Source: Clostridia bacterium
GTDB lineage: Bacteria > Bacillota > Clostridia > Oscillospirales > Acutalibacteraceae
Reading direction: 5' to 3'
Assembly (NCBI GenBank): GCA_017380575.1
Contig: JAFODS010000028.1
Location: 62,001-126,000 of the forward strand
DNA: 64,000 nt
Numbering within the stretch: position 1 is the stretch's first letter; every line of letters begins with the position of its first letter. The position numbers and the translations under genes are program-made. A model generated the notes under the pieces. The model was not told the origin of the DNA. It ran no database searches and saw nothing but the letters and a program-made list of their open reading frames with translations. Of this stretch, positions 6,474-42,457 are shown piece by piece.

Positions 6474-6512
6474 CAGGCGGCAACACAAAGCAATGTGTTG
6501 CCGCCTGATTTT
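6474..6512 (+). terminator. Terminator after the GT2 gene
   Basis: A perfect 14-bp stem (6474-6487 with 6494-6507), loop AAGCAA, is followed by ATTTTT. It ends the plus-strand glycosyltransferase transcript; the minus-strand side lacks a T run. Confidence 0.88.
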
Positions 6513-6539
6513 TACAAAAATCCCACCATTCCGAAAATA

Positions 6540-25910: not shown

Positions 25911-26746
25911 TAAACATTCCCCAAATACTCGGTATAATTTTTTTCTGTATCAAAAACATATGCATGAACAGCAGCCTTACGCTGTTCTTCACTCGGGAGT
26001 TTCATGTAGTCACCGTAACGGTATTCGAGATATTCCTTAATCTTTTCTGAACCAAAAAGATTTGTATCTTCAAACGGAATATCTATCGGCTTTTCAAAAA
26101 AGGTTTTATCGAACAATCCGTTTCTGAATTTTGCCGGAGTTATCCAATAGCAATATTTATAATTATCTTTTCGGTTGTCATATCTGTAAATATGACTGTA
26201 TGCAATTCGTGCAATAAGTTTACAAGGCATAAACTTAAGTGATTTTAAAACAACTTCCTGTGACTTAGATTTCGGATTCCAGTTTCTTTGAGACAAGCCG
26301 TAAAGTGTTACGAACTTAGATTCATAGTAGACTATTTTCTGAATAAATTTATTTTCCGGAACCTTGTGAAGAATCATTATATCAACATAGATACCGTGGT
26401 GCATATCTTTACGGTCCTTGAAATTCTCTTCAATAAATGTAGTACCATTCATACGGATTTTCGCGTATTCAAGATAGTTTTTATCGGTTCGCCATTCTTG
26501 AAGTATAAACTGCTCACTGTTTGAGTTTTCAAAAACTGTTTTGAATTTTTTATATTGGTCGGGAGTCATAAATATATCCAGATCATCGTCCCAAGGAATA
26601 AATCCTCCGTGGCGGACCGCACCGAGTGCTGTACCACCCATAATATAATAAACAATACCTTGTTCGCGGCACAGTTTATCAATAAATTTCATTGTTTCAA
26701 GAATTTTATCCTGCACCATTCGAACGGATTGTTCAGACATTATCAT
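25910..26746 (-). CDS. LicD-family phosphotransferase
   Basis: The 278-aa protein has the LicD hallmark YIMGGTALGAVRHGGFIPWDDDLDI (residues ~33-57), with the paired Asp of a nucleotidyltransferase-type active site, and a C-terminal EYRYGDYMKLP. LicD proteins transfer phosphocholine or polyol phosphate from a CDP donor onto glycans. A CTP-using cytidylyltransferase lies in the same operon and may make that donor. The start chosen is ATG 26746, six bases after GAGGTG... ; ATG 26740 is also possible. It overlaps the preceding GT4 gene by 14 bases. Confidence 0.9.
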   Translation of the reverse strand: MIMSEQSVRMVQDKILETMKFIDKLCREQGIVYYIMGGTALGAVRHGGFIPWDDDLDIFMTPDQYKKFKTVFENSNSEQFILQEWRTDKNYLEYAKIRMNGTTFIEENFKDRKDMHHGIYVDIMILHKVPENKFIQKIVYYESKFVTLYGLSQRNWNPKSKSQEVVLKSLKFMPCKLIARIAYSHIYRYDNRKDNYKYCYWITPAKFRNGLFDKTFFEKPIDIPFEDTNLFGSEKIKEYLEYRYGDYMKLPSEEQRKAAVHAYVFDTEKNYTEYLGNV

Positions 26747-27827
26747 TGAGCACCTCTTTATAAACATTTAATGTATTTTCAGCCATTTTAGTTGCAGTAA
26801 GTGATGCCTTAGCAAAATCATAAGCAGCTTGAGTTAGATTTTGATATTCAAGCACATTTTTGTTAACTATATTTCTTATAACCTTCACCATGTCTTCCGG
26901 ATCAGTTGCACTAATCGGCACACCGTATTTCATATCCTCATATCCGGCAGTCTTAGTTCTGACAACAGGAACTTTCATGAAAGCAGCCTCAACAACACTT
27001 AGCGGAAATCCCTCTTTAAAACTTGGCAAAAACAAATAATCAGCAATTCCCAATATTTTACGTGTATTAACCCAACCAATGAAACTAAAGTAATTTTGAA
27101 GATTGTAACGTTTGATCAACTCGATTATTTCATTGTAATAAGGACCTTTTGGTTCGCCCGAACAAACAATTCGAATTTTTTCTTTTTCACATTCTTCCAA
27201 CCTATTAACCGCCTCAACAACTAAACGATGGTTTTTAACCGGATCAATTCGCGAATGCATTACAATAACAATCTTATCTTCTGGAATATTCCATTCATTT
27301 TTCACCATATTTACTTCATTTTTTTGCATCGGCAACAATGCTCTTTCGTCCACTCCGTTAAGAACGGTCACCACTTTTTCAGAAGAAATTTTCAAATCAT
27401 CGACCAACGAATTACTAACATCTGTTGAAACGCCAATGGCTTTTGCACCAATAAAAGTAAATTTTCGGTGAACTATATCATGTGGAATATTAGCTAAATG
27501 TAATGTATATACATAAGGAATCTTATAAACTAAATTATACAGGAATATATATACAGAAGCCACTCTATGATGGCAGTGAACAATGTCAATATTGTTTTCA
27601 TTTATAATCTTATGTAGTTTAATTATGCTTTTAACTACACCTACAGGGTTCTTTAGTTGGGTATAAATTTTTATAAATTTCACATTATCATTTGACAAAA
27701 CTATATCCTGGGTTCCTGATACAACAATAACATTATGCCCAAGACGTTGCAAAGAATCCGAAAGCAAATCAATATGATTTCCTACTCCTGTCTTTGCTAA
27801 AATGCGTGAAAAAAGCATTATATTCAC
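26733..27827 (-). CDS. GT4 glycosyltransferase
   Basis: The 364-aa GT-B protein has MLFSRILAKTGVGNHI at the N terminus, HCHHRVASVY in the acceptor half, VVTVLNGVDERALLP at the hinge, IVMHSRIDPVKNHRLVVEA and the donor motif FLPSFKEGFPLSVVEAAF (EX7E). It is a retaining sugar transferase acting at the cytosolic membrane face. The predicted start is GTG 27827 behind AGGTGA; the next ATG (27818) has poorer spacing. It is part of the tightly packed operon. Confidence 0.92.
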   Translation of the reverse strand: MNIMLFSRILAKTGVGNHIDLLSDSLQRLGHNVIVVSGTQDIVLSNDNVKFIKIYTQLKNPVGVVKSIIKLHKIINENNIDIVHCHHRVASVYIFLYNLVYKIPYVYTLHLANIPHDIVHRKFTFIGAKAIGVSTDVSNSLVDDLKISSEKVVTVLNGVDERALLPMQKNEVNMVKNEWNIPEDKIVIVMHSRIDPVKNHRLVVEAVNRLEECEKEKIRIVCSGEPKGPYYNEIIELIKRYNLQNYFSFIGWVNTRKILGIADYLFLPSFKEGFPLSVVEAAFMKVPVVRTKTAGYEDMKYGVPISATDPEDMVKVIRNIVNKNVLEYQNLTQAAYDFAKASLTATKMAENTLNVYKEVLNDNV

Positions 27828-27835
27828 AATCTCAC

Positions 27836-28666
27836 CTAAACCTTTTTAGCTAAAAAATAATACTTGCTCATTAACTTGTTGCAAAACGGGATTTTAATTA
27901 AAATCTTTGCAACAAATTTTAAAACTTTAAATATAAAAGTTTTCGTTATATAAACAACAACAGACTCTGTCCAACGATGTGGGTGAATGCTGATAATATT
28001 GCCCTTAGTCTTGTCTAATGCCTCTGATAAATAATCAAGATTTTTATAAGGGATGTTTTTATCATCAGTATTGACAATATCGTTATTTATCGGGTCATAG
28101 ATAAGCTTGAACATTCGTCCCGCATCTGAGAAATACAGATAATCTGTCGGGATTTTCTCTTTAAAATTAACCATTATATCCGAAATTTCCGGATATAATT
28201 CACTCACCTTTTCATTTCTGAAAAAGTCACGGTTTGAGTGATATCCCACACGTTCAACAATCGGATTGCCGTGCTGACAAACAGTTATAATATTAAATCC
28301 GTTATCCTCAAACAACCTTTTGTTTTTTTCAAACTCTTCGGTTGCTTTTTCAAAATCACCTTTGCAAGCATCAAGTACATCGTAATGATACGATATTTCA
28401 TGGCCCATTTGCTGTATTTTTTTCAGCAATTCGACATTATTGTTACTTTCAAGCAGATAAGCCTGAACATAATACGAACCTCTGTGACCGTACTGCTTTT
28501 CTATCTGAGCAATCCTAAAGGCATGTGAAACATCGGTTTCGACATCGTGCTTTAAAACGATGTAGTTACCTGAATCTGATTTAACTTCACATGCAGGAAT
28601 GCTTATAAAACCTTTTTCTTTTAACGTTGAGCAAAACTCAGCCCACTTTTTGTATACAAAAATCAT
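27836..28666 (-). CDS. Polysaccharide deacetylase-like protein
   Basis: The 276-aa protein has IVLKHDVETDVSHAFRIAQIE (metal-type Asp/His), GHEISYHYDVLD, CQHGNP and a C-terminal IISIHPHRW, a pattern of the NodB-like polysaccharide deacetylase fold found in glycan loci. A hydrophobic C-terminal segment (~235-276) could anchor it. It could remove N-acetyl groups from the glycan or its precursors, but the first HD motif is unusual (KHDVETD) and some homologues are inactive. It overlaps the downstream end of the cytidylyltransferase gene by 4 bases. Confidence 0.7.
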   Translation of the reverse strand: MIFVYKKWAEFCSTLKEKGFISIPACEVKSDSGNYIVLKHDVETDVSHAFRIAQIEKQYGHRGSYYVQAYLLESNNNVELLKKIQQMGHEISYHYDVLDACKGDFEKATEEFEKNKRLFEDNGFNIITVCQHGNPIVERVGYHSNRDFFRNEKVSELYPEISDIMVNFKEKIPTDYLYFSDAGRMFKLIYDPINNDIVNTDDKNIPYKNLDYLSEALDKTKGNIISIHPHRWTESVVVYITKTFIFKVLKFVAKILIKIPFCNKLMSKYYFLAKKV

Positions 28667-29088
28667 TCTTTATTAAGCCTCTCGCGCAGAATAGTTGACG
28701 AAATTCCATCTGTATGTGAAAGATAAACCACAGTACAGCCCTCTGTTGCGAACTCTTTTTCGTAATTATCCCAAGCAGGTGTACCCTGCCAATCAGATCC
28801 GACAAAAACAGCATCAACGTTGTACTTCTTTACGGCTGAAAGCTTATCCATATCATTCTGTAAAACTACCTTATCAACATACTTGATAGAATCAACAATC
28901 TCAACTCGTTCTTCTTCGCAGATAATGGGTTTCTTGTTTTTTCTCTTTATACAGAGTTCATCAGTTGTAACTCCGACAATAAGATACTCACACTGTTCTT
29001 TTGCTCTTTTAATTATATTGAGATGCCCGATATGAAACATATCGTATACGCCTGTTGTGTAGCCTATTTTGTACTTCTTTTCAGCCAT
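28663..29088 (-). CDS. CTP-dependent cytidylyltransferase (TagD/glycerol-3-P type)
   Basis: The 141-aa protein has the HxGH site in GYTTGVYDMFHIGHLN, the KR-containing IKRKNKKP loop, VFVGSDWQGT and the GISSTILRERL motif, all typical of glycerol-3-phosphate or phosphocholine/ethanolamine cytidylyltransferases. It makes a CDP-alcohol from CTP. With LicD about 2 kb away in the operon it likely supplies the CDP donor for phosphodiester decoration. ATG 29088 is used; an in-frame TTG at 29094 overlaps the upstream stop. Confidence 0.9.
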   Translation of the reverse strand: MAEKKYKIGYTTGVYDMFHIGHLNIIKRAKEQCEYLIVGVTTDELCIKRKNKKPIICEEERVEIVDSIKYVDKVVLQNDMDKLSAVKKYNVDAVFVGSDWQGTPAWDNYEKEFATEGCTVVYLSHTDGISSTILRERLNKE

Positions 29089-29090
29089 AA

Positions 29091-29918
29091 TCAAACCGTC
29101 TTTCTGGCAAAATTTTTAAACACCCAACTGCGGAGTTTATTAGGTAATAAAACCTGGACAACAAATCTTTCACCAACATTTACAGCAAATCTGCCCAAGC
29201 CGATAATTTTATTATCCAACATAAATTTCTGCAATTTTGCTTCACTCATAAAATACTTTGTTCCGCCACGTCGCTGATACATTTCCTTGCCGATACGAAC
29301 ATTAACAAGATAATCCGGCAAATTGGCAAATTTTGCACCATCAAGAAATAGGCGAAGCCACAAATATGTATCCTCTTCGCAGTACCAATCAATGTATCCG
29401 CCGACGCTGTCAACACGGCTTTTTTTGAACATAACCGTGACCTGATTCATCGGGCAGCGTTTCTTCATATCTTCTTTTATTGATGCATCATCAGATTTGA
29501 CAACACGTGCTTCGACAATATTATCCGGTGTACCGACAAATTCGGTGATGTTTCCGCCTACAATAGTAAGCTTGGAATCGCTTTCAAACATTGCAAGTTG
29601 CTTTTCGAATCTGTCCTCTGCACTGATATCATCCGCATCCATTAAAGCCACAAGCTCGTTTGAACAGTTGTTCAGACCGACTCGACGAGCTTCTCCGTGT
29701 CCCTTATTTTCAGGCAAACGGATAACTTTGAATATTGAATTTTGCTCAAAAGGGTTAATTACATCATCAAGCTCCTGCGGAACAGGACCATCAACAACAA
29801 GAACTACTTCATCGGGTTTTCTTGTCTGATTAAGGATACTGTCAACCGCTGTTCTGAACCATTCCGGATTATCCTTGCCGTAAACACACATGGATACAGA
29901 AAATTTTGTATCAGGCAT
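29091..29918 (-). CDS. Family 2 glycosyltransferase
   Basis: The 275-aa GT-A protein has FSVSMCVYGKDNPEWF, VVLVVDGP, GHGEARRVGLNNCSNELVALMDADDIS (with the DxD-type metal site) and EEDTYLWLRL. Three ATGs stand in a row; the third (29918) has the best distance to GGAGG. It lies directly after the priming sugar transferase, so it may add an early sugar of the repeat unit. Specificity is unknown. Confidence 0.92.
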   Translation of the reverse strand: MPDTKFSVSMCVYGKDNPEWFRTAVDSILNQTRKPDEVVLVVDGPVPQELDDVINPFEQNSIFKVIRLPENKGHGEARRVGLNNCSNELVALMDADDISAEDRFEKQLAMFESDSKLTIVGGNITEFVGTPDNIVEARVVKSDDASIKEDMKKRCPMNQVTVMFKKSRVDSVGGYIDWYCEEDTYLWLRLFLDGAKFANLPDYLVNVRIGKEMYQRRGGTKYFMSEAKLQKFMLDNKIIGLGRFAVNVGERFVVQVLLPNKLRSWVFKNFARKTV

Positions 29919-29920
29919 CA

Positions 29921-30601
29921 TCATACCTCCAGGAGATCTTTTGCTTCTTTCTGGCGAAGTTCATATTCTTCGTTTGTCACTTCACCTTTTTGCAGCAGAT
30001 AGTCACCAAAGTCAAGGTCGCTTGCCGTTCCTTCTCGTACTGTATCTGCTCTTTCAAAAACTTTTATTACTGTTTTGAAAACAATCTTTGCATCATTCAA
30101 AAACGTTATTCCGTTTTCTATGTACTCAATATCATACTCAAATTTCTTTTCCCAGCTGATATTGTTTCTTCCGTTAACCTGAGCCCAACCTGTTAATCCG
30201 GGCATTACACTGTGACGTACCCTCTGCTTCGGCGTCATAAACACCATATCGCGTACCAACTGCGGTCTGGGACCTACAATTGACATATCACCTTTGAGAA
30301 TATTTATAAGTTCAGGTAATTCATCCATTGACGTTGCACGAAGAAACCTTCCGTACCTTGTAAGACGCTTGTCATCAGGTAAAAGCTTTCCGTCAGCATC
30401 TTTTTTATTGGTCATTGAACGGAATTTTATTAACTTGAAAATCTTTTCGTTCTTTCCCGGTCTTGGTTGTGTGAAGAACGGATTGCCTCTCATCTGAACA
30501 GCACCGATAATTATAAGCACCAACATCAATGGTGAAAGTATCACCAAGGCTATCAGAGAAAGTAAAAAATCTATTGTTCTTTTAAAAAACTTTTGGTACA
30601 T
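29921..30601 (-). CDS. Priming sugar-phosphate transferase (PglC/EpsL type)
   Basis: The 226-aa protein has one N-terminal membrane helix (FFKRTIDFLLSLIALVIL region) followed by the mono-topic phosphoglycosyl transferase core: KFRSMTNKKD, RYGRFLRATSMDELPELINILKGDMSIVGPRP split over two blocks, and PGLTGWAQVNGR. It loads the first sugar phosphate onto undecaprenyl phosphate. It directly follows an aminotransferase of the PglE/LegC type, suggesting an amino-sugar (bacillosamine-like) first residue. The start is ATG 30601, nine bases after GAGG; a TTG at 30625 lies in the upstream gene. It is the second such enzyme of the locus. Confidence 0.92.
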   Translation of the reverse strand: MYQKFFKRTIDFLLSLIALVILSPLMLVLIIIGAVQMRGNPFFTQPRPGKNEKIFKLIKFRSMTNKKDADGKLLPDDKRLTRYGRFLRATSMDELPELINILKGDMSIVGPRPQLVRDMVFMTPKQRVRHSVMPGLTGWAQVNGRNNISWEKKFEYDIEYIENGITFLNDAKIVFKTVIKVFERADTVREGTASDLDFGDYLLQKGEVTNEEYELRQKEAKDLLEV

Positions 30602-30612
30602 ACCTAAAAACC

Positions 30613-31872
30613 TCAATCGAAGCAACTTCTCACGATTTCAATAATAGCATTCTGCTCATCTGCCGTCATTTTTATATCGCTGGGCAAACACAAGCCACGC
30701 TCAAAAATATCCATACTTACATCAAAAATTCCACCTTTGATGTAAGCGTTTGTTTTAGCTCTTAATGAACCGCTTTTTGTTACGAACTCATGCATACGGT
30801 ACATCGGCTGCATATGCATCGGCTTCCACAGCGGTCTGCCTTCTGCATTGTAGCTTGCAAGCTTTTCAAGAATTTCTGTCGGACAAGTCTTGCCTTTCTC
30901 CTTAACATAGAGGGCATTGGAATCGTCCCTTACCTGACGGCACATATAATCCTTATCGATAATCATAGCCGAAAGCCAATAGTTAGGCTCAGTTTCATCA
31001 ACTATAGGATTCATTTTTACAGGAAGATCTTTGAATCCTTCTCGATAACGCTCATAAAGCATTTTTTTACGTTCAATATGTTCTTCGAGGTACTTGTACT
31101 GACCGCGGATAACACCTGCAACAACATTGCTCATACGGTAGTTATATCCAACCTCTTCGTGCTGATACCACGGTGCATTCTCCCTTGCCTGTGTTGACCA
31201 TTTGCTTGCCTTGTTTGCAACTTCCTTGTCATCAGTAAGAAGACATCCGCCTGCCGAACCCGTAATGATTTTATTTCCGTTATAGCTTATTGCGGAATAA
31301 TCACCGAACGAGCCGCACTGTCTGCCGACAACTGTTGCACCCATAGCTTCGGCAGCATCTTCAATGAGAAGTGCACCGTGCTTTTCACAGATTTCTTTGA
31401 TTTTATCAATTCTTCCCGGGAAGCCGTAAAGCTCAGCATAAACAACAAGCTTGACATCCGGATAAAGTTCAAATGCTTTTTCAAGAGCAACGGGATCCAT
31501 ATTCCATGAATCCTCTTCAGTGTCAATAAAAACAGGGATACCGCCTTCATAAACAACCGGATTAAGTGTTGCTGCAAAAGTCATATCGGAGCAGAAAACA
31601 CGCCTGTTTTCGAGTGCACCGTGGCTGATTGCAGGTCTGCCGTAAAGTCTTTCACCTGCAGCCTTAACCGTGAGGTGGAGTGCTGCAGTACACGACGAAA
31701 GACCTACCGCGTATTTCTTTTCAGCCTTTTGAGCTGCTATACGTTCAACCTCGTTGATGTTTGCACCAACTGTAGACATCCAGTTTGTTTCATAGGCTTC
31801 TTTCATATATTCAAGCTCTTCTCCGTGCATTGTCGGAGTAGCCAGCCATATTTTCTTACTGAATCTTTCCAA
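30613..31872 (-). CDS. DegT/DnrJ/EryC1-type PLP aminotransferase (PglE/LegC-like)
   Basis: The 419-aa protein has IWLATPTMHGEELEYMKEAY, GLSSCTAALHLTVKA, IEDAAEAMGA and SYNGNKIITGSAGG, where Lys forms the PLP Schiff base. It aminates a 4-keto nucleotide sugar. The start appears to be TTG 31872, 8 bases after GAGGG; no ATG fits, since the first Met is inside the conserved PTMHGEE block. A matching 4-keto sugar could come from the CapE-type dehydratase encoded later, as no dedicated PglF-type dehydratase is seen. It lies between the nucleotidyltransferase and priming-transferase genes. Confidence 0.9.
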   Translation of the reverse strand: MERFSKKIWLATPTMHGEELEYMKEAYETNWMSTVGANINEVERIAAQKAEKKYAVGLSSCTAALHLTVKAAGERLYGRPAISHGALENRRVFCSDMTFAATLNPVVYEGGIPVFIDTEEDSWNMDPVALEKAFELYPDVKLVVYAELYGFPGRIDKIKEICEKHGALLIEDAAEAMGATVVGRQCGSFGDYSAISYNGNKIITGSAGGCLLTDDKEVANKASKWSTQARENAPWYQHEEVGYNYRMSNVVAGVIRGQYKYLEEHIERKKMLYERYREGFKDLPVKMNPIVDETEPNYWLSAMIIDKDYMCRQVRDDSNALYVKEKGKTCPTEILEKLASYNAEGRPLWKPMHMQPMYRMHEFVTKSGSLRAKTNAYIKGGIFDVSMDIFERGLCLPSDIKMTADEQNAIIEIVRSCFD

Positions 31873-31924: not shown

Positions 31925-33082
31925 TTATTTTAAACCTAATTTATCTAGCAAATTATGGTCATAATCACTTTTTGATACCGTTTCAAGTCTGTTGACATAC
32001 GTATTCTTAAAACCCTTCTTTTTGCCGAACAAAAGTGAAAAAATCCTGTGAAACTCATAAAATGGTGTCAGAAACGGACACTTTTCAAGTATCGGATAAT
32101 CTCTTTTTAAATATCTGTACGGAACAAAAAGTCGGGAAATCATATATCTTACCTTGCTGCCGGAGCGTTGGTTTACTGACTCGGCTCTTGTTTTTGCTGA
32201 GCCGAAAATTCCGCCTTCAAGAATATATTTTTCCATCTGCAATGTTGTTTCGTCGTGTTCATCATCGCAGAACCACACACGGCTGAGTTTTCTTGCACTT
32301 TCGGCAAAAGTTAAAAGTTTACCCCTTTTCAGAGTTTTATTTATTTCGGCGGTATATCCGCACTTGTTATCTATAAGCATCAGGTCGATGAACGGACGCA
32401 ATCCGCATCCGCCGAGTCTGAAATGCTTTGCCATATGAAGAATATGATAGTAATAAAAAATCTCATCACTGAGCTTATATCTGTAATCCGAACCATCGCA
32501 AGGCTCTGCTTTTTTCCAGACATCCTTAAGAACGGACGAATAAAGCGGCGATTTTTTATTGGCAAGTAATTTATAATGAAGTTCGATAACTGTTTTATTA
32601 GCTGAAACAAAAACAATATCGTGTTTACTTTCACCTTTTTTTGAATAATCTTTAATGCTAAAAATTGCCTCCGAAGCCTTCTTCAGATCTTTTTCTTTAA
32701 CAAGAATATCAATATCACAGCTTGTTCTCATCCAAGGTTGAGGATACAGGTTGCGTATTTCAGCACCTTTCAGAGGGATATACGGAATACCTTTTTCCTC
32801 TAACACTGAACAAACCTCGTTTAAAGATTCATTCAACTTTTCCTGTTCAAAAACAGCTTTATAAAACTCGTTCATAAACTGACCTTGCTGAGGACAGTTT
32901 GCAAAATAGCCGTTGTTATTCAGTGCTGAAGCTATAAGATGTGCAACGTTATGCTTATAAGACATTAAAAGCAACTCAACAAAATCTTTTTCGGTTAACA
33001 AAGCATTATCTGACAAACAAAGTTCCTGTTGAAAAACTTCGTGTTTTATGAGATTCATTAAAATTTTGTCGGTTTGCTCCAT
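31925..33082 (-). CDS. NTP_transf_5 family nucleotidyltransferase
   Basis: The 385-aa protein carries the motif IPLKGAEIRNLYPQPWMR followed by SCDIDILV, with Asp123 and Asp125 as the metal pair of a nucleotidyltransferase-fold protein (Pfam NTP_transf_5, mostly uncharacterised). It resembles members found next to PqqD-like and HprK-related proteins in glycan and peptide-modification loci. It is the sixth gene of the third transcription unit, after the S26 peptidase. It may transfer a nucleotide or nucleotide-linked group to the peptide, to a protein or to a sugar; none is proven. Confidence 0.82.
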   Translation of the reverse strand: MEQTDKILMNLIKHEVFQQELCLSDNALLTEKDFVELLLMSYKHNVAHLIASALNNNGYFANCPQQGQFMNEFYKAVFEQEKLNESLNEVCSVLEEKGIPYIPLKGAEIRNLYPQPWMRTSCDIDILVKEKDLKKASEAIFSIKDYSKKGESKHDIVFVSANKTVIELHYKLLANKKSPLYSSVLKDVWKKAEPCDGSDYRYKLSDEIFYYYHILHMAKHFRLGGCGLRPFIDLMLIDNKCGYTAEINKTLKRGKLLTFAESARKLSRVWFCDDEHDETTLQMEKYILEGGIFGSAKTRAESVNQRSGSKVRYMISRLFVPYRYLKRDYPILEKCPFLTPFYEFHRIFSLLFGKKKGFKNTYVNRLETVSKSDYDHNLLDKLGLK

Positions 33083-33095
33083 AATGTTTCTCCGG

Positions 33096-33560
33096 TTATC
33101 TTTTGTTTTTTATTCTTCTTACCTTAAACCACAAACGCATAAAAAGAGGACGAATCGGTGTAAGAAACTCCCATATAAATACAAGTGTTTTCCAATAAAC
33201 CGACTCAGGGCTTTTCTGTTTACCCTTTCGTTCAATTTCACTGACACAGGCAACCACCTGAGATTTTTCAATCTTTTCACACTTCGTTTGTGCATCACCG
33301 CAAAGAAGCATTGAACCGTCTGAATTGATCTTTTTAATTCTGTGTAAAACGAGTGAGCCGTTTATTCTTTTAAAAAGAATAATACTTCCGGTTCTTAAGT
33401 CGTTTTCCGTATGTTTCCTGAGATAGACCATATCACGTCTGCTTATAAGAAAAGGATTCATGCTGCTTCCCGAAACACAGAGAGGTACAGTTGCACCTTC
33501 GGCAATTAAATTTTCAATTGAATCTGAAATCTCTTCTACCGAACAGTTCAACTTTTCCAT
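33096..33560 (-). CDS. S26/S24-family signal peptidase-like protease
   Basis: The 154-aa protein has the nucleophile motif CVSGSSMNPF (Ser33) and a second box VLHRIKKI, with His73 where bacterial signal peptidases have Lys, as in the archaeal/ER type, and LLCGDA after it. A hydrophobic C-terminal segment (~120-140) may hold it at the membrane. It may cleave the leader of the 94-aa candidate precursor encoded two genes upstream, since the ABC exporter lacks a C39 peptidase domain. That partnership is inferred from gene order. Confidence 0.82.
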   Translation of the reverse strand: MEKLNCSVEEISDSIENLIAEGATVPLCVSGSSMNPFLISRRDMVYLRKHTENDLRTGSIILFKRINGSLVLHRIKKINSDGSMLLCGDAQTKCEKIEKSQVVACVSEIERKGKQKSPESVYWKTLVFIWEFLTPIRPLFMRLWFKVRRIKNKR

Positions 33561-33563
33561 AAT

Positions 33564-34325
33564 TCACCTAAAAATTTCATTGTATGTCAATCTTACAGCC
33601 TCTTCGTCAGGTCTGCATTCAAGAAGAAAAACAGGAACTTTTTTTAAAAGACTGTCAAAAGTATCCAGAGTCTTATTAAGACAATCTTTATCCCAATGAG
33701 GCAAAAAGATATGTGGCATAAGATACTCTGTTGCAGTTTCATTAAGCTTTGTTATATGGTTTTCGGCAGATTGCATTAAAACAACAATCGCACTTAGCGG
33801 TGCTTTTTTGTTAAGACAATACTCTGATGATCCCTTCCAAGGAAGACCGTAAGCAAAAAAGGTTCCGTCTGTTTCACGTACAAAAGCTTTGTCACCGTTT
33901 ACGATTTCAGCACCGAGGAAGTTCCTCCAGAGTTCGGCCTGAGTTGTCTTTCCGACACCGGAATAGCCTGTAAAAAGAATTCCTTTTACGTTAAGCGTTA
34001 CAAACGAAGAATGTGTAAGCAAAGCGTTGAAAGAAGAAAATCGCGAACAGATTGCCGCAAGCGGTAAAGCAAAATCTTTGTCGTATTCCGGATGGTAATA
34101 CGAAACGACCTCACTCCAATCGTTATTTGCAAAAAGAATATCGCCGTTTTTACCTCTTAACAGATGTTCCGGTTTTTCCAAAGCATACTGTACAGAATGA
34201 CATTCCAGCATTTTATCTTCAAATTTAATTCTTATTACCGAATCTTTTTCGCAAGTTAAAAACTCTTCTGCGAAACTACAGTTTTCTTTCTGCCAGTCAA
34301 CTGACAGGTCTGCAATTTTTATCAT
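33564..34325 (-). CDS. HprK-related P-loop kinase
   Basis: The 253-aa protein has a Walker A loop GYSGVGKTTQ (120-127) after a beta-strand GILF, a D145 in IVNGDKAFV, and FAYGLPWKGSSEYC, a pattern shared with HPr kinase/phosphorylase and the HprK-related kinases of PqqD-associated systems. The N-terminal ~110 residues are unlike classical HprK. Target is unknown; a peptide, protein or sugar is possible. Its ATG overlaps the candidate precursor stop (ATGA), so expression is coupled one-to-one with that peptide. Confidence 0.82.
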   Translation of the reverse strand: MIKIADLSVDWQKENCSFAEEFLTCEKDSVIRIKFEDKMLECHSVQYALEKPEHLLRGKNGDILFANNDWSEVVSYYHPEYDKDFALPLAAICSRFSSFNALLTHSSFVTLNVKGILFTGYSGVGKTTQAELWRNFLGAEIVNGDKAFVRETDGTFFAYGLPWKGSSEYCLNKKAPLSAIVVLMQSAENHITKLNETATEYLMPHIFLPHWDKDCLNKTLDTFDSLLKKVPVFLLECRPDEEAVRLTYNEIFR

Positions 34326-34606
34326 ACGTTCTGTGAACTACTGAAGCAAAAGAAATAAGCTTCAAATGCACCTTGCTCTTTAACCTTTGTCATAAGGTCA
34401 TTGTAATAATGGACGAAATCTGTACCAGGAAGATTCTGAGATACTGCAAGCCTACCTGTGTACAACTCTCGGCAACCGTCCTGAAGGTTTTTAAACTGGA
34501 TAACAGCCATACCGCCAATCACATCATCACCGACCGAAGCAGCGATGCTTTCATTAAGATTGAGAGCGATAAGCTTACTTTCCGGAGCTACATATTTTTT
34601 CTTCAT
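34322..34606 (-). CDS. Candidate RiPP precursor peptide
   Basis: The 94-aa protein has a leader-like N terminus (residues ~3-24: KKYVAPESKLIALNLNES then IAAS) and a gap-rich second half containing Cys45, Cys87 and an aromatic C-terminal stretch YFFCF. Leaders of the form KKYxxPExxxIxLN occur in short ORFs beside PqqD/radical SAM genes. It is fused by ATGA overlaps to the radical SAM gene upstream and to the kinase gene downstream. No homology-based function can be given; an alternative is a small regulatory or chaperone protein. Precursor status is inferred from context and shape. Confidence 0.6.
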   Translation of the reverse strand: MKKKYVAPESKLIALNLNESIAASVGDDVIGGMAVIQFKNLQDGCRELYTGRLAVSQNLPGTDFVHYYNDLMTKVKEQGAFEAYFFCFSSSQNV

Positions 34607-35661
34607 AATTCTGTCTCCTTCTTTTTTATGTCATATAACTGTTTAAGTTGTTTTGCTATATTGCAGAAGTCCTCGTCAATTTTTTCAGGGTGTCCGCTTT
34701 CTGCACAAAGCACTGCGGGACAACGCTGACAAAATTCTTTCCATTCGCAATCCGAACACTCTTTTGGATTTTTTATTTTTTCAAGCTGAGTGTACAGGTT
34801 TTTGAAATCGTTACTGATATTCCCTGAATAATCTACACAAGGTTCGTTCATAAATGAACAAAGCTGAAGCTTGCCATGCCAGGTGATATAAAGTGATTTA
34901 CGGTAACTTGCACACATTGAGAAAGGCAATTCAGGAAAACGGTATTTGCTCTTCTCTAAATCTTCTAAAGTATATTCGTATGAAAAATCCGCAATACCTA
35001 ATCTTGAAGTTTCTGCAGTGTTTTCTGCACCTCGTGAAGATTTCACAACAGAAACGGTATGCTGAAGCGGTACTTTCTTTTCTCGTGCAAACTGATAAAT
35101 CTGCTGAAGATCATCCGCATTTTCTTTCACTATTGTTGAAGAAAGAGTAAGCGGTACACCGGCTTCTTTAATAAGGTCAATTGCCTTTGAAACACGGTCA
35201 AAACCGTCGGACACTCCGCACATTCTTCGATAAGTTTCATTGCTTGCACCGTATACAGTAACTTGCATATTGTGCGGCATTCCGTAAAGACGAAATTTTT
35301 CCATTGCAGTTTCATCAATAAGATAACCGTTGGAAAAAATTGTAATCCAGAACCCCATCTTATTAAGACGGCTGTAAATATCCCAGAAATCAGGATGAGT
35401 AAAAACCTCACCGCCGGTAAGCAGGATTTTAAGGGTCCCCATTTCGCGGAGCTTTTCAGCAATTTTAATCCACTCATCTGCAGTAAGAATTTTCCCTTGA
35501 AGTTCCGCCTGTTCTTTGTCAAGACGGACATAACACATAACGCATTTAAAATTACAGAAAGGTGTCAGTTCAAACGTTACCGAGAAAGGTGCGCAATGTT
35601 CAACCGCCCATAAATTGAGCTTCGCCAAAAATCCGTCGCCGAAGTTTTCGCAACCCAGCAT
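34603..35661 (-). CDS. Radical SAM/SPASM enzyme
   Basis: The 352-aa protein binds the radical-SAM [4Fe-4S] cluster through C36-x3-C40-x2-C43 in TPFCNFKCVMCY and has the TGGEVF GG-motif (~82-86). A C-terminal SPASM-type region holds Cys250, 268, 275, 302, 305, 311, 314, 319 and 333 and may bind auxiliary clusters. Such enzymes form C-C or C-S cross-links, epimerise or otherwise alter peptides. The PqqD-like partner directly upstream (TAATG overlap) supports a peptide substrate, most likely the next gene's product. Confidence 0.9.
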   Translation of the reverse strand: MLGCENFGDGFLAKLNLWAVEHCAPFSVTFELTPFCNFKCVMCYVRLDKEQAELQGKILTADEWIKIAEKLREMGTLKILLTGGEVFTHPDFWDIYSRLNKMGFWITIFSNGYLIDETAMEKFRLYGMPHNMQVTVYGASNETYRRMCGVSDGFDRVSKAIDLIKEAGVPLTLSSTIVKENADDLQQIYQFAREKKVPLQHTVSVVKSSRGAENTAETSRLGIADFSYEYTLEDLEKSKYRFPELPFSMCASYRKSLYITWHGKLQLCSFMNEPCVDYSGNISNDFKNLYTQLEKIKNPKECSDCEWKEFCQRCPAVLCAESGHPEKIDEDFCNIAKQLKQLYDIKKKETEL

Positions 35662-35930
35662 TATTCCAACGCTCCCTGTTCTTTTAATGAACCAATGAAT
35701 TTTTCAACATCTTCGGTTGCAACAGAAGTTTCAACATCATAATTTTCAATAAGAATTTCCGTAAGTTCTTCAACTGTCGCACCTTTTTCAAGAGCACCCC
35801 ACAAAAGCTCTCCGCTTTCGCTCAGTGCAATCATTCCGTGCATCTCTGATGTCTGTGCACCAACAGGAACAGCCATTACATATTCACCTATTTTTCGGAC
35901 AACAAAGCCGTTCTTTACACGATACACCAT
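35661..35930 (-). CDS. PqqD-like RiPP recognition element protein
   Basis: The 89-aa protein matches the PqqD shape: an N-terminal beta region (RKIGEYVMAVPVG), SGELLWGALEKGATVEELTEI and a helical tail with EDVEKFIGSLKEQGALE. It would bind the leader peptide and present it to the radical SAM enzyme. The start is ATG 35930, close behind GGGAGG; a GTG at 35948 overlaps the ribosome site. It is the first gene of the third transcription unit of the glycan locus and has its own promoter. Confidence 0.88.
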   Translation of the reverse strand: MVYRVKNGFVVRKIGEYVMAVPVGAQTSEMHGMIALSESGELLWGALEKGATVEELTEILIENYDVETSVATEDVEKFIGSLKEQGALE

Positions 35931-35973: not shown

Positions 35974-36002
35974 ATTATAGCATTTTAACGCCATTAAATC
36001 AA
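35974..36002 (-). promoter_or_regulatory. Promoter of the RiPP-glycan operon
   Basis: On the minus strand TTGATT (35997-36002) and TATAAT (35974-35979) with a 17-base spacer lie 44 bases before the PqqD-like ATG and just after the terminator of the ABC gene. It is the only good promoter found before the 24-gene run ending at 13512. Confidence 0.72.
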
Positions 36003-36043: not shown

Positions 36044-36080
36044 CAAAAAACAAAGTGCATCAATTTTATATGACGCACTT
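36044..36080 (-). terminator. Terminator after the ABC exporter gene
   Basis: On the minus strand AAGTGCGTCA (36071-36080) pairs with TGATGCACTT (36053-36062) with one G-T wobble, followed by TGTTTTTTG. It lies six bases after the ABC stop and separates the regulatory unit from the RiPP-glycan operon. Confidence 0.8.
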
Positions 36081-36085
36081 AAAAA

Positions 36086-37807
36086 TTATTTATTTGTCTG
36101 TGTAAGATTTCCGTCTTCATCTACCCTGTAAACGCGGTCACAATACTGCAGCATACTCGGCCTATGAGTTGTTATAACACACGTTCTGTTCGGGTAGGAT
36201 TGCATAATATTAGCAAGAACTTTTTGCTCTGTTTCAGCGTCAAGTGCACTTGTTGCCTCGTCCATAACAAGCACAGGAGAGTTCTTAAGAATTGCTCTTG
36301 CGATTGAGATTCTCTGGATCTGTCCTTCGGAAAAATTGACGCCCTTTTCGTTTATAACCGTATGAATCCCAAGCGGTAGCTTTTCTATAAAGCTCCAGGC
36401 ATCAGCCGTTTTAAGGACATAGATCAACTCATCATCGGTAGCTTCAGGATTAACCATACGCAGATTTTCCGCAATACTTCCGGCAAATACAGCATTCTCC
36501 TGCGGAACATAAGAGCAGAATCTGCGCGTACTTGCAGAAACTTCAGTTTTTCTTCCGTCTGCTACAGCCATCGTCATTCTACCCTGCTGAGGCCTGACAA
36601 GGCCTAAAATCAACCTGAGGATTGTTGTTTTACCCTCTCCCGAAGGACCTACAAGTGCAACGGTTTCTCCCGGATTCACATAGAAGGAAATATCCTTTAC
36701 AACAGGAGTTTTTCCGTCTTTATAGGAGTATGTAAGATTGTCGCAATTAAGATAAACACCCTTATCGCGAGCTAACGGTTCAAGCTCTTCAACTTCAGCC
36801 GCGTTATCTGTATTTTCTTCATCAAGCTCAGTTATTTCCATAATTCTGCCTGCAGCTGTCGCAATCGAAATTGAAGTCGGCAAAAGAGAAACTATTGAAG
36901 AAAACGATGACGTGAGCTGTCCCGAAATCTGAAGGAACAGTGTCATTGTACCGTAAGTTATTGCACCCTGCCAGAGTCTCCACACTCCCCAACCGTAGCA
37001 AAGATATGAAACAGCAAGTCCTATAACAGAAAGACACATAGTCATAATGATTGAGAACTTACCGTGATCAAGACGCATTTTCCTGTAAACGAAGAGATAA
37101 TCCCTGAGCTGATTCACATAACGGTTCGTTATACCAAAAGCCTTGATTGTCTGAATGTTCTGAATTGACTCGGAATAAAATGAAAGGATTTTTCCGTTCA
37201 TTTCTCTGCTTTCCTTGTTATATTTACGCATCATTTTAGCCGAAATCTTTGAGGTCAAAGCCAGAAACGGTGCACTCATAAATGCAAACAAAGCCATTAC
37301 CGGATCGTAATACAAAACTACTGCAAGACAGCCAACAAACTGTGTCACTCGCGTAAAAACGCTCGGGATAAAGGAAATTATGCTGCTTGAAATTGCAGAA
37401 ACATCCCCTTCGATTCTGTTAAGAAGGTCGCCCGAATGGTATTTGCTTATTTCCTCCCAATCGGCATACACAACGTGTTCATACACATTGCTGCGGATTT
37501 CGTTGCTTATTTTAGAACCAACCACAGTCGCAACCCTTGACGTTGCCGAGGTAACGAGAATCTGCAGAAGTCCGAGACCTACAGCAAAAGCCGCACTTGA
37601 AATAATAGTCTTTTCATTGTGTGAAACAACAGAGTCAATAAGATATTTCGAAGCTACTGTTGACCCGATACCCATTAACGTACCTGAAATTCCGATAACA
37701 ATATAAAGAAAAATCTGAAGGCGATAACCTGAAGCATGGCGAAAAAGCCACTTCCATTCTTTAGCCAAAGAACGGTACAACGCAGCATATTCACCCGGCT
37801 TTTTCAT
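36086..37807 (-). CDS. ABC transporter, fused membrane and ATPase domains
   Basis: The 573-aa protein has six membrane helices in its N-terminal ~320 residues and a C-terminal ATPase: Walker A VALVGPSGEGKTTI, signature NFSEGQIQRISIARAIL and Walker B VLVMDEATSALDAE. It is a homodimeric type I exporter half. There is no C39 peptidase domain at the N terminus, so any leader cleavage must be done elsewhere, for example by the nearby S26 protease. Start ATG 37807 follows GAGG; a GTG at 37816 overlaps it. It is the last gene of the CpsB/BY-kinase unit. Cargo is inferred as the modified peptide or a glycan intermediate. Confidence 0.92.
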   Translation of the reverse strand: MKKPGEYAALYRSLAKEWKWLFRHASGYRLQIFLYIVIGISGTLMGIGSTVASKYLIDSVVSHNEKTIISSAAFAVGLGLLQILVTSATSRVATVVGSKISNEIRSNVYEHVVYADWEEISKYHSGDLLNRIEGDVSAISSSIISFIPSVFTRVTQFVGCLAVVLYYDPVMALFAFMSAPFLALTSKISAKMMRKYNKESREMNGKILSFYSESIQNIQTIKAFGITNRYVNQLRDYLFVYRKMRLDHGKFSIIMTMCLSVIGLAVSYLCYGWGVWRLWQGAITYGTMTLFLQISGQLTSSFSSIVSLLPTSISIATAAGRIMEITELDEENTDNAAEVEELEPLARDKGVYLNCDNLTYSYKDGKTPVVKDISFYVNPGETVALVGPSGEGKTTILRLILGLVRPQQGRMTMAVADGRKTEVSASTRRFCSYVPQENAVFAGSIAENLRMVNPEATDDELIYVLKTADAWSFIEKLPLGIHTVINEKGVNFSEGQIQRISIARAILKNSPVLVMDEATSALDAETEQKVLANIMQSYPNRTCVITTHRPSMLQYCDRVYRVDEDGNLTQTNK

Positions 37808-37839
37808 AGTTATCACCTCGAATCATTATATTTTTAATA

Positions 37840-39321
37840 TTACTTTTTGCTCTTCTTTTTACCTGAATAACCGTATTTTGAAGAATAACCGTAGCGGTAG
37901 GAATATCCGTAGCGGTATCTGTTGTAGTATCCGCCATATCTGTAATATCCGCCGTATCCGCCAATTCCTCCTGCAGCACCGTTAAGAATACAGCCAAGGA
38001 ACTCTGCATCAGTTTCAAGCATGGAATTGATACCTGCGCGGATAGTCTTCTGAATAACAGCATCTTCTCTGATTACATAAATAATTGAGTCGACCATCTG
38101 TGCAACCATTGTTGCATCCGAAATAATTCCGCAAGGAGGCGTATCAACCAATATCAGATCATAGTCCGCTTTAAGAACCTCTAATTTTTTCTTAATCTCT
38201 TCCGTACGAAGTATTTTCTGAACGCTTTCAACCTTCGGTTTGAATGAAAGCAAATAAAAACCGAGAGAGTCAATAAGATCTATGCGGTAATATTTATTAT
38301 CTTCAACTTTTGTTTTAACGGTTACATCTTCACCCAACAGGTGTTGAATTCCTGAGTCTCGCAAATCCGCATCTATTATTAAAACTCTCTTTTCATTTTT
38401 CGCAAAAATAGATGCAAGATTAACGGAGAACAATGTTTTACCTTCAGACGGGGCAGTACTGGTAACCATAATTGAATTTTTATTTTCATCAATCAGACCT
38501 TGAACTGTACCTCGGATCAATCGCAAAGACTCCATAAACTCGTTTCCGACAAGCGGATTGGTCAGAATTATTCTTTGATCAATCTCTCTTCTGTATTTTT
38601 TAAACACAACTTGCGGCAAAACACCAAGACAATGTTGGTTGAGGACTGTACGGATATCTTCTTTAGTACGGATAGTTTTTCTGAGCAAGGCATACATTAC
38701 TATCCATAAAACACCCAAAGCAAAACCAACAAGAGCAGCCTTAGCAACTGAAGACACCCAGGCTCCCGAATTTGAAGGTTTCTCAGCAACTTCAGGTTCA
38801 CTGATCATTACCAATTTTGTTCTTCCTATAATGTAGTCTGCTACAAAAGAGTAATTATCAATAACAGATATCAGAGTATCATATGTAAGCTGAGCATCAG
38901 TTCCTGTAGATGTCAGCGTAACCATATTGGTTCCCTGAACACAGGTCGCATTGACTGTCGCAGGCATACTATCTACTCCAAGATCATTACATACCTTACT
39001 CTGAAGAATTTTATTATTAATTATATGGGGAAAAACTGTTTCCAGCTGGTCAGCAGTTTCTCTGTCATAGTAATATGAATATGCTGCGATACCGTTATCG
39101 CCAGTCAGTACCTGATTTTCGGTGTGAACCGTAAATGTAGCTGTCGTTTTATAAGAAGGAACAAAATGAACACGTGTTCTGTAAAACTGTATACCCGACA
39201 GAAGAACAGCAAGTGCAAGTGCTACCCAACCGAATTTTTTAATTCCTCGCAACACATCGCTTATCAGAACACCAATTTCTATGGTCATTTCTTCTTTTTC
39301 ATTTTCAATCGTATTGTTCAT
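37840..39321 (-). CDS. Wzz/BY-kinase fusion with Tyr-rich tail
   Basis: The 493-aa protein has an N-terminal chain-length determinant region flanked by two membrane helices (~30-50 and ~195-215) and a cytosolic bacterial tyrosine kinase: Walker A' VTSTAPSEGKTLFSVN, RVLIIDADLRDSG and LILVDTPPCG. The C terminus (last ~45 residues) contains 14 tyrosines spaced by Gly, Arg and Ser plus a lysine-rich end, a strong autophosphorylation cluster. It sets polymer chain length with the CpsB-like phosphatase. The weak AGGA ribosome site is noted. Confidence 0.92.
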   Translation of the reverse strand: MNNTIENEKEEMTIEIGVLISDVLRGIKKFGWVALALAVLLSGIQFYRTRVHFVPSYKTTATFTVHTENQVLTGDNGIAAYSYYYDRETADQLETVFPHIINNKILQSKVCNDLGVDSMPATVNATCVQGTNMVTLTSTGTDAQLTYDTLISVIDNYSFVADYIIGRTKLVMISEPEVAEKPSNSGAWVSSVAKAALVGFALGVLWIVMYALLRKTIRTKEDIRTVLNQHCLGVLPQVVFKKYRREIDQRIILTNPLVGNEFMESLRLIRGTVQGLIDENKNSIMVTSTAPSEGKTLFSVNLASIFAKNEKRVLIIDADLRDSGIQHLLGEDVTVKTKVEDNKYYRIDLIDSLGFYLLSFKPKVESVQKILRTEEIKKKLEVLKADYDLILVDTPPCGIISDATMVAQMVDSIIYVIREDAVIQKTIRAGINSMLETDAEFLGCILNGAAGGIGGYGGYYRYGGYYNRYRYGYSYRYGYSSKYGYSGKKKSKK

Positions 39322-39331
39322 AATACCAATC

Positions 39332-40837
39332 CTATTCGTTTCGGTTTAAGTTATCCAATGAATTTGTTGAAAATCCGCCATCATCCTTTGCAACTTCATC
39401 AGTCACAGACCTACCTGTTTTGGAATAAGCATAATAGTTGCTCTGACCGTGATAACCTCGTTCATCTGTACCCAACTGTCCGAACAATGTAAACGGTTTA
39501 TATACGTTATTAAGTACACAACCTTCAATATTTCCTCCTGCTTCTGTAACATTAAGAATAACTTCATTGATATCCTCAACAGGAACACAGTCAGTTCGAA
39601 CTACAAGAATGGTTGTATCAGCTACTTCAGAAATAGTTATCGCGTCAGCAGAAACAGAAATGGGTGGCGTATCAATTATAACAAAGTCAGCCTTTTGTTC
39701 TATCTGGTTCAAAGCATTTTTAATAATAAGGTTATTTGAAAGAACATCCGCACTTTCATGTGTTTTTTTATTGAACGCTATAGTAAGACTACTCTTTCTG
39801 TACCTGTAAAACTTAAAATTTATAAGATCCACATCCTTTGACAACACATCAGAAAAATCAGTTTCAATGTCATCGTGGAAATCAAAAATTTTGTGTATAG
39901 ACGGCTTTCTGACATCAAGATCAAGGAGAACAACATTGTAACCTCTGTCGGAAAGTGCCAAAGCTATATTGGCCGCAACTGTTGATTTACCTTCATTTTC
40001 AGCTACACTGGAAATAACGAAGGTTTTTTTATTCTGATTCTTATGTAAATATTCAAATTTTGTACAAAGTTTTTGGTAATCTTCAGTAAAACGCAGACTT
40101 GAATATGCATCATTAATGAGCAATGCTCTTTTCTTACGCTTGAATCTTTCTTTCTTCGAAAGATGCGGCCGCTCATGTGACACTGTTCCGATCAGCTTAG
40201 AATCGACTTTATCAGAAAATCCCTTTTCTTCTTTAACCGTTCCGCGCAACAAAGAAAACAGCACTACCAATCCGCCTTCAAAAAGCATGGCCAAAACTAT
40301 AATCTGTTTTCTGTAAACCGTAAGACGTGAATTGGAAGGGGTTGTTGCCATTGTTGGCTCTGAAACGACATCAATAATTGAATCGGTAAACACCGCTTCT
40401 GTTACTTCCGGATAAACCTCGAGTATTGATGTAAGCAATTTGAATGCCAATTCAGGTTCTTCCGCCCTTACAGCAACATTCAAAAGATTGGTAGATTCAG
40501 TCAGACTTGTTGAAATTGTTCCGTCGAATGATTCTAATCCAAGATTTTCTGCAGCTAATTTTTTGAGTGAGTTCTGCTTAAAAACATCTTTGAAAATATT
40601 TGCCATTTCTGCCGAAGCGGTAAGGCTGCTGAATGCTCCCGTTGTTCCTACCCTTGAGCGGACAACCAAGACAGCCTTACTGGTATATGTAGGTGTGTAA
40701 ATACTTTTTTCAACAATCTGAATACCCATAAGTGCGATAAGAGCAATCAGAATAATAGCCCAGAAACTGCGCACAACATCCCTTACCAGGCTGTTCCATT
40801 CAAAATTAAACGATATACCTGAACTTCTGTTTTTCAC
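39332..40837 (-). CDS. Wzz/BY-kinase fusion (second copy)
   Basis: The 501-aa protein has the same order: two membrane helices (~25-45 and ~180-200) around a Wzz domain and a kinase with VAENEGKSTVAANIAL, NVVLLDLDVRKPS and VIIDTPPIS. Its C-terminal tail has only a few tyrosines (YHGQSNYYAYS). It starts with GTG 40837 behind GGAGTG. It sits 11 bases before the Tyr-rich paralog, so the two probably act together, perhaps as kinase and substrate or as a mixed ring. Divergence between the two suggests an old duplication. Confidence 0.9.
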   Translation of the reverse strand: MKNRSSGISFNFEWNSLVRDVVRSFWAIILIALIALMGIQIVEKSIYTPTYTSKAVLVVRSRVGTTGAFSSLTASAEMANIFKDVFKQNSLKKLAAENLGLESFDGTISTSLTESTNLLNVAVRAEEPELAFKLLTSILEVYPEVTEAVFTDSIIDVVSEPTMATTPSNSRLTVYRKQIIVLAMLFEGGLVVLFSLLRGTVKEEKGFSDKVDSKLIGTVSHERPHLSKKERFKRKKRALLINDAYSSLRFTEDYQKLCTKFEYLHKNQNKKTFVISSVAENEGKSTVAANIALALSDRGYNVVLLDLDVRKPSIHKIFDFHDDIETDFSDVLSKDVDLINFKFYRYRKSSLTIAFNKKTHESADVLSNNLIIKNALNQIEQKADFVIIDTPPISVSADAITISEVADTTILVVRTDCVPVEDINEVILNVTEAGGNIEGCVLNNVYKPFTLFGQLGTDERGYHGQSNYYAYSKTGRSVTDEVAKDDGGFSTNSLDNLNRNE

Positions 40838-41675: not shown

Positions 41676-42401
41676 TCACCGTATTTCTATATTTTTTATA
41701 ACCTTAAAAGGATTTTCCGAGAATAATACATCGGCATATTCATACGAATATTTCCCGCAAACAATTTCATGTGCCTCAGACATATCGGGAGTTCTGGTAT
41801 ACTGACTGTGAGCATCGCTTGCAACAAAGTCTGCAAGTTCGTTTTCAAGTATGTATTCCGAAACTAATTTAGGATATCTTCCGAAAGCACCGATTATACT
41901 TTGAGCATTAAGCTGAATTAAGGCTCCGTATTTTTTCAGTTTCAAAATTGAAGCACTGTTTTCGAAAGCAAAAGCATATCTTTCAGGATGGGCAACTATC
42001 GGAACATATCCGAACGAGGTCAATTCTTTCACTGCGGAATAAGCTTCAGCTTCCTGAGTTTTAAAATCGAATTCAAGCAGAACATATCTTGATTTGTTAA
42101 GAGTTATCAGGCCACCGCTTCTTAACTTAGACAAAACATCTCCGTGACAAAAAATTTCCTGACCAGGATAAATTTTTATATCGATTCCCCGCTTTGAAAA
42201 TTCCGTATTAAGTGTTTGGATTTTTTCATCAAACAAATCTGTCCAATAATTTTCAAAAACACCCGGGATGTTGCTGTGCGGTGTTGCAATTATAGCTTTT
42301 ATGCCTGTTTTTGCTGCAAGGGAAGACATTTCGACGGAATCGACTATACTACCCGACCCATCGTCAACATACGGTATTATATGACAATGAATATCGTACA
42401 T
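41676..42401 (-). CDS. CpsB/YwqE-type PHP tyrosine phosphatase
   Basis: The 241-aa protein begins MYDIHCHIIPYVDDGSGS and has ATPHSN, FDFKTQEAEAYSAV, VPIVAHPERYAF and FVASDAHSQYTR, the metal-binding His/Asp set of PHP phosphatases that dephosphorylate BY-kinases. It would reset the kinases encoded next to it and so control polymer length. The start is ATG 42401; an in-frame TTG at 42434 has no ribosome site. It heads the second unit of the glycan locus. Confidence 0.9.
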   Translation of the reverse strand: MYDIHCHIIPYVDDGSGSIVDSVEMSSLAAKTGIKAIIATPHSNIPGVFENYWTDLFDEKIQTLNTEFSKRGIDIKIYPGQEIFCHGDVLSKLRSGGLITLNKSRYVLLEFDFKTQEAEAYSAVKELTSFGYVPIVAHPERYAFAFENSASILKLKKYGALIQLNAQSIIGAFGRYPKLVSEYILENELADFVASDAHSQYTRTPDMSEAHEIVCGKYSYEYADVLFSENPFKVIKNIEIR

Positions 42402-42457
42402 TGTTTCACCCGCCTCACTAATTTCAAAAAACAAACACTTCCACTAATATTCAAATA

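Follow-up and report, generated by a model that had tools for sequence, protein, structure and literature searches.

What is a set of peptide-modifying genes doing among the genes of a capsule cluster? We asked this question of a stretch of 64,000 nucleotides (the window) from contig JAFODS010000028.1 of a Clostridia bacterium (GCA_017380575.1), in which six tightly packed open reading frames (ORFs), all of them open, lie on the minus strand at 31925-35930. A sequence-only reading had described them as a module for a ribosomally synthesized and post-translationally modified peptide (RiPP). Checks of ORFs, junctions and families confirmed the six genes and the families that it had named, with successive ORFs coupled by TAATG, ATGA and ATGA and then separated by gaps of 3 nt and 13 nt, but that outline had missed an MsbA-like exporter just upstream and the capsule setting. 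We consider it probable, with ample room for doubt, that the module encodes a pathway like that of the linear polyphosphorylated peptides (LPPs), described in 2026 from lpp of Paenibacillus alginolyticus, a member of the Bacilli (PMC13381572), with an added radical S-adenosylmethionine (radical SAM, rSAM) cross-link and an exported product that acts with the capsule.

In this proposal, the PqqD-like protein, a RiPP recognition element (RRE), would bind the YxxP leader of a precursor of 94 amino acids (aa) and present it to the enzymes. Of these, the radical SAM/SPASM enzyme would cross-link the core by radical chemistry, the likeliest product being a thioether at one conserved cysteine or at both, and the HprK-fold kinase would phosphorylate the conserved serine directly past an ESIA motif. 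The S26 (SpI-like) peptidase would take off the leader near ESIA, the NTP_transf_5 protein (NTP5) would attach a sugar or nucleotide to the phosphate, and the MsbA-like ABC protein would export the product, which may then work with the capsule polysaccharide or the Wzc machinery. The gene set and its order, their conservation, the leader motif and the kinase fold are what we observed, and they are presented below.

The 94-aa peptide gave no credible match in family searches. It has a leader of about residues 1-22, with the motifs YVAP and ESIA, and a core with C45 and C87. Close relatives of the module, which we call type A, comprise the window and 21 further loci (L061-L081), from uncultured Clostridia and Oscillospiraceae sampled mostly in ruminant gut. 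Their precursors align end to end as 20 distinct homologues, those of L063 and L066 having been dropped as identical to those of L062 and L065. All 20 carry a YxxP leader with Glu at P+11, at least two core cysteines, a serine at most three residues past IA (the alignment was judged by eye) and the invariant residues F38 and Y49. There is good support for reading the genes as a RiPP-like module whose precursor bears a leader, and no aligned homologue lacks the leader. The expectation of a conserved leader and a variable core held in part: identity among the precursors is 67% in the leader and 38% in the remainder, but the core is not hypervariable, given its cysteines and the purifying selection on it. 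The ratio of non-synonymous to synonymous substitution rates (dN/dS) over the whole gene was about 0.05-0.15 in five pairs of precursors, from seven attempted, synonymous sites being saturated in two. Judged by these comparisons, the 94-aa ORF is a real gene under purifying selection; a chance ORF was rejected on the homologue alignment and the dN/dS. The predicted fold of the precursor reached a mean pLDDT (predicted local distance difference test) of only 56.9.

The precursor also keeps close company with its putative maturase. Its profile matched six of 60 related genomes, each time adjoining a close rSAM gene (at least 60% identity), and these were the same six genomes as in an rSAM search with a cut-off of 1e-60, which does not show weaker rSAM relatives. 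The profile gave no match in G304 and G326, which have a distant rSAM enzyme, while G102, with another distant one, was outside the 60 genomes. Among 394 genomes of the order, two matched, both at the module. Hence, neither search turned up the peptide away from the PqqD and rSAM genes, an occurrence that would have spoken against the earlier reading. We also scanned the small ORFs of 88 loci, which are not independent and in 85 of which PqqD was detected, for a Met, a Y/W-xx-P motif, a spacer and a Glu. A spacer of 10 gave 45 matches near PqqD, and spacers of 6-9 and 11-15 gave 0-10. Type A precursors, including that of the window, account for 22 of the 45, and about six of the remaining 23 are fragments of other ORFs, rSAM and kinase among them. 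The same spacer gave 20 matches far from PqqD too (other spacers 5-13), most of which resemble precursors. Small ORFs starting like MK.W..PE.KVF.VKMDENIAASGD were seen in L082, L083, L084, L085, L087, L091 and L093, loci with an rSAM gene, in two copies in several of them; they are probably another precursor group with equal leader spacing.

The enzymes retain the residues that the proposed steps would call on. An RRE profile built from 15 relatives matched, in the PDB, the lasso RREs TfuB1 (2.5e-6) and TbiB1 (1.4e-5), PbaB1 (1.8e-4) and, weakly, LppB (0.088). The position equivalent to the Tyr-binding D70 of LppB is Asp in 15/15 sequences, and at the N33 position the window has Ser and its relatives have Ser, Asn or Thr. 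In the rSAM enzyme, the CxxxCxxC motif and seven more cysteines (C250, C268, C302, C305, C311, C314 and C333) are invariant in 14/14 sequences. Its closest solved structure by sequence is SkfB (5e-25), and the StsB, AlbA and SkfB models match it, all below cut-off. A Cys-bearing precursor adjoins this radical SAM/SPASM maturase, as in sactipeptide and ranthipeptide loci. The kinase is weakly HprK-like by sequence (HprK_rel_B at 6.2e-4, far below cut-off), and its predicted model, with a mean pLDDT of 94.9, has HprK/P as its top Foldseek match. Structural alignments of the model pointed to PEPCK, which is kin to HprK; HprK was not among the 50 matches listed, which excludes nothing. H105, K126 and D145 are invariant in 39/39 kinase sequences. 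The S26 protein, nearest to the models sigpep_I_arch (1.3e-7, below cut-off) and SEC11A (0.0076), has invariant S33, H73 and D89 (20/20) and is a probable leader peptidase. The NTP5 protein is possibly a sugar or nucleotide transferase acting on the phosphopeptide. The top NCBIfam model of the ABC exporter is MsbA_rel, below cut-off.

The surroundings of the module bear directly on its role. Upstream lie the MsbA-like exporter, two Wzc-type proteins, an Ig-like surface protein and CpsB (Table 1). Downstream lie genes for an aminotransferase, a sugar transferase, a cytidylyltransferase, glycosyltransferases, LicD, an acyltransferase, a Wzy-type protein, a MurJ-type flippase, a Stealth protein and nucleotide-sugar genes. 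On this gene content, the module sits within a cluster for capsule or exopolysaccharide that spans about 30 kb, at roughly 13.5-43.3 kb. A peptide-modification kit within capsule genes suggests that a ribosome-made peptide works with a capsule sugar. Two Bac_transf sugar transferases of the cluster flank the module (29921-30625 and 42534-43253). The Stealth, LicD and cytidylyltransferase-like genes (20227-21225, 25910-26767 and 28663-29094) suggest a phosphate-bearing polysaccharide, on the functions that we take Stealth and LicD proteins to have.

Table 1. Genes of the module and neighboring features, with positions in the window
Feature	Position	Strand	Evidence
PqqD-like discrete RRE, 89 aa	35661..35930	-	Pfam PqqD 3.4e-14
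Radical SAM/SPASM enzyme, 352 aa	34603..35661	-	Pfam Radical_SAM 1.1e-27
Precursor peptide, 94 aa	34322..34606	-	alignment of 20 distinct homologues, conservation, dN/dS
HprK/PEPCK-fold kinase, 253 aa	33564..34325	-	predicted model, fold matches, invariant residues
SipW/Sec11-like S26 peptidase, 154 aa	33096..33560	-	Peptidase_S24 1.2e-5
NTP_transf_5 protein, 385 aa	31925..33082	-	Pfam PF14907 4.3e-39
Promoter-like TTGATT-17-TATAAT, TG ahead of second hexamer	35974..36002	-	pattern shared by 10 of 11 loci with 113-185 bp gap
Terminator-like hairpin behind ABC gene, then T run	36053..36080	-	1 found vs 0.1 expected in shuffles
MsbA-like ABC exporter, 576 aa, just upstream of module	36086..37816	-	ABC_membrane 5.9e-38, ABC_tran 3.4e-29
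Two Wzc-type chain-length/tyrosine-autokinase proteins	37840-39321, 39332-40837	-	family searches
Ig-like surface protein, 275 aa	40844..41671	-	Bact_surface_Ig-like 5.3e-11
CpsB/CapC capsule phosphatase	41676..42434	-	CpsB_CapC 5.2e-67

Is this arrangement kept elsewhere? A radical SAM profile scan of genome contigs yielded 79 loci, in which we counted neighboring genes within 9 kb on the same strand. In type A, PqqD, the kinase, the ABC exporter, both Wzc-type genes and the Ig-like gene are each present in 22/22 loci; NTP5 is found in cis in 20/22, CpsB in 17/22 and S26 in 16/22. The 58 distant loci belong in many cases to Lachnospiraceae and in some to Coriobacteria, the group of Olsenella and Collinsella. 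Genomes of cultured gut Lachnospiraceae and Coriobacteria carry this more distant form. One layout common among the 58 loci (type B) has PqqD and rSAM, then a small ORF unrelated to the type A precursor, kinase, ABC, Ig-like and Wzc-type genes and CpsB. Many of the 58 are cut by contig ends; they contain PqqD in 56 loci, kinase in 53, ABC in 51, S26 in 14, NTP5 in 16, Wzc in 32, WzcK in 34 (the Wzc and WzcK profiles are related and cross-match), Ig in 32 and CpsB in 22. The recurrence of the same gene set in a changed order argues for a functional tie, and the comparisons speak strongly both for a working peptide module and for a link between it and the capsule genes. In L096-L137, a precursor-like ORF of about 96-146 aa without YxxP lies between rSAM and kinase; Gly-Trp is conserved in it, and a single Cys close to the C-terminus is invariant (14/14 aligned sequences). 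Common descent of the type A and type B precursors is unsupported (hhalign probability 0.7 of 100).

Two loci in Clostridia-phylum genomes hold FET-motif precursors of LPP type (L163 at 12994-13122 and L164 at 6494-6676). There, such a precursor with a second set of PqqD, kinase and S26 adjoins an rSAM module having its own Cys-bearing precursor, so the FET-motif and rSAM kinds can be direct neighbors. Since the FET-motif precursors of these loci have Cys too, the idea that rSAM and Cys are cleanly linked was dropped.

Several points weigh against the LPP-like pathway as we propose it. All relatives were found via the rSAM enzyme, and the 22 type A loci are related to each other. S26 is absent in cis from 6/22 of them and NTP5 from 2/22, and in more distant loci that share the capsule link, the small ORF is unrelated and S26 is mostly not close by. 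We sought S26 and NTP5 elsewhere in three of the S26-lacking genomes and in G175. What they showed counts in favor of the pathway: in G177, G305 and G309, whose module is without S26 and NTP5, the two genes stand side by side elsewhere (3/3 examined); the G309 S26 match counts one TAA, yet an unbroken ORF spans it. Such pairs were seen at L146 9293-10914, L147 9159-10764 and L148 6165-7779, outside any polysaccharide cluster. The SPASM model matches the rSAM enzyme below the Pfam cut-off, and the kinase carries NGD where HprK has an Asp-Asp motif. The RRE profile places lasso peptide RREs above LppB, as a PDB ranking rather than a tree. The LPP motif Px9Fx[T/A] fails, by eye, in 20/20 precursors, which have no Phe at P+10 and no Thr or Ala at P+12, and LppN, the NTP transferase of the LPP system, had no visible effect in a foreign host (PMC13381572). 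Finally, everything from the cross-link, the phosphorylation and the cleavage to sugar transfer, export and the role is inferred.

The rival that survives best concerns the chemistry. The rSAM enzyme might make something other than a Cys thioether, e.g., an aromatic or C-C link, while the two cysteines form an extracellular disulfide. We hold this unlikely but worth serious attention, since conserved Tyr, Phe and Arg stand beside the cysteines (F38 and Y49 among them) and a pair of cysteines is typical of a disulfide. Against it, the last Cys near the C-terminus is invariant also in the 14 aligned type B precursors, which have no other homology to those of type A, and this single invariant Cys is a poor fit to a conserved disulfide.

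It is rather doubtful that the mature peptide is itself covalently joined to the capsule as an anchor or primer of the polysaccharide, which would make a proteoglycan-like capsule. The kinase would then phosphorylate the N-terminal Ser, NTP5 would add a sugar, and a chain made by the surrounding glycosyltransferases would be built on the peptide or transferred to it. The usual wall-anchoring enzymes are LytR-CpsA-Psr proteins, and the genome has three matches to them, all on contigs other than that of the cluster, which fits such a capsule without proving it.

The exported peptide could also be, though this seems quite unlikely, a signal or regulator made by the same pathway: a two-component system or the Wzc kinases would sense it, and it would set the amount of capsule without being part of it. 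The promoter-like site of the window module (Table 1) fits this idea. Where a gap of 113-185 bp separates exporter and PqqD, TTGATT-17-TATA[AC]T occurs in 10 of 11 loci (L066 repeats L065), and in this group the module could be switched separately from the capsule genes. In the other 11 loci, the two genes abut or overlap in ten, and L071 has genes between them. By a crude motif, which Pfam confirmed for L113, 10 of 41 distant loci have an ORF for a GHKL histidine kinase that ends at PqqD (L101, L102, L103, L113, L114, L115, L116, L127, L128 and L133); the 41 are not strictly type B throughout. In L102 and L113 a LytTR response regulator precedes it, and such a system would possibly place the module under peptide-sensing control. 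Against a signal stand the roughly 70 conserved core residues, long for such a molecule, and the window cluster and close loci, where no two-component system was noticed.

We judge it improbable that the product is a RiPP antibiotic or competition peptide merely travelling with the capsule cluster. Many radical SAM RiPPs are bacteriocins, an MsbA-like exporter would suit such a peptide, and selection-driven transfer has been inferred for LPPs (PMC13381572). However, the core is under purifying selection, no immunity gene was recognized, and the place beside Wzc-type genes is fixed in 22/22 close loci and 32/58 distant ones (the latter in another order, many being contig-cut). An rSAM version whose place beside Wzc genes is fixed, and whose long core is under purifying selection, suggests a capsule role rather than a passenger. 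A peptide-derived small cofactor such as pyrroloquinoline quinone or mycofactocin is very improbable: PqqD and PqqE-type profiles match moderately, but the rSAM scores on such NCBIfam models are far below cut-offs, and a cofactor fits neither the long conserved core nor the kinase and the exporter. The module makes the relation between peptide and capsule directly testable, as it offers a defined gene set and a concrete precursor in which a phospho-Ser and a cross-link are predicted.

How does the LPP-like pathway with its added cross-link compare with known systems? With sactipeptides and ranthipeptides (the SkfB and AlbA systems) the window has in common a radical SAM/SPASM enzyme together with a precursor, whereas its separate PqqD-type RRE, kinase, NTP transferase and SpI peptidase, and its only two conserved cysteines, set it apart. 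In exosortase-type exopolysaccharide loci, too, polysaccharide genes lie near those for a PqqD-like protein and an HprK-related kinase. The sequence-only reading had held the combination of kinase and nucleotidyltransferase to be no standard RiPP set; this did not stand, as the combination is known from lasso peptides (PMC9266682) and LPPs (PMC13381572). Lasso peptides of the paeninodin and pseudomycoidin type share with the window an RRE, an HprK-like kinase and a nucleotidyltransferase-like protein acting on phosphorylated Ser, PsmN being needed for the hexoses on the phospho-Ser of pseudomycoidin (PMC9266682). In contrast, the kinase target in the window is predicted at the N-terminal end of the core, not at a C-terminal Ser, and an rSAM enzyme is present. 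A lasso peptide was rejected since the B2 leader peptidase family (PF13471) has no match in the window's genome, which is 88.8% complete; no macrolactam cyclase turned up among the cluster ORFs either, in which no profile search for a cyclase was made. For a radical SAM LPP or a tie between RiPPs and capsules in print, only PMC13381572 and the lasso-peptide papers were relevant among the matches listed, and the supplements of PMC13381572 may hold such loci.

The LPP set consists of a kinase, an NTP transferase, a SpI peptidase, an RRE and an exporter, and is also found in capsule loci. Its kinase, homologous to that of the window, phosphorylates Ser3 of the core, its SpI peptidase cuts the leader with the help of the RRE, and its role and final product are given as unknown (PMC13381572). 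The window adds a radical SAM/SPASM enzyme, which the paper does not mention in its main text; it also differs in its long two-Cys core, in having no FET motif and in coming from Clostridia rather than Bacilli. Its NTP transferase, PF14907, compares with that of the LPPs by description rather than by exact family. Because the LPP motif fails and the RRE profile ranks lasso peptides above LppB, we describe the module as LPP-like rather than class it among the LPPs. What the two have in common is an RRE, an HprK-like kinase, a SpI-like peptidase, an NTP transferase, an MsbA-like exporter, a position in a capsule locus and a YxxP leader with Glu at P+11, the distance found in the LPP consensus YxxPxVLxHQxIxFETxxS (PMC13381572).

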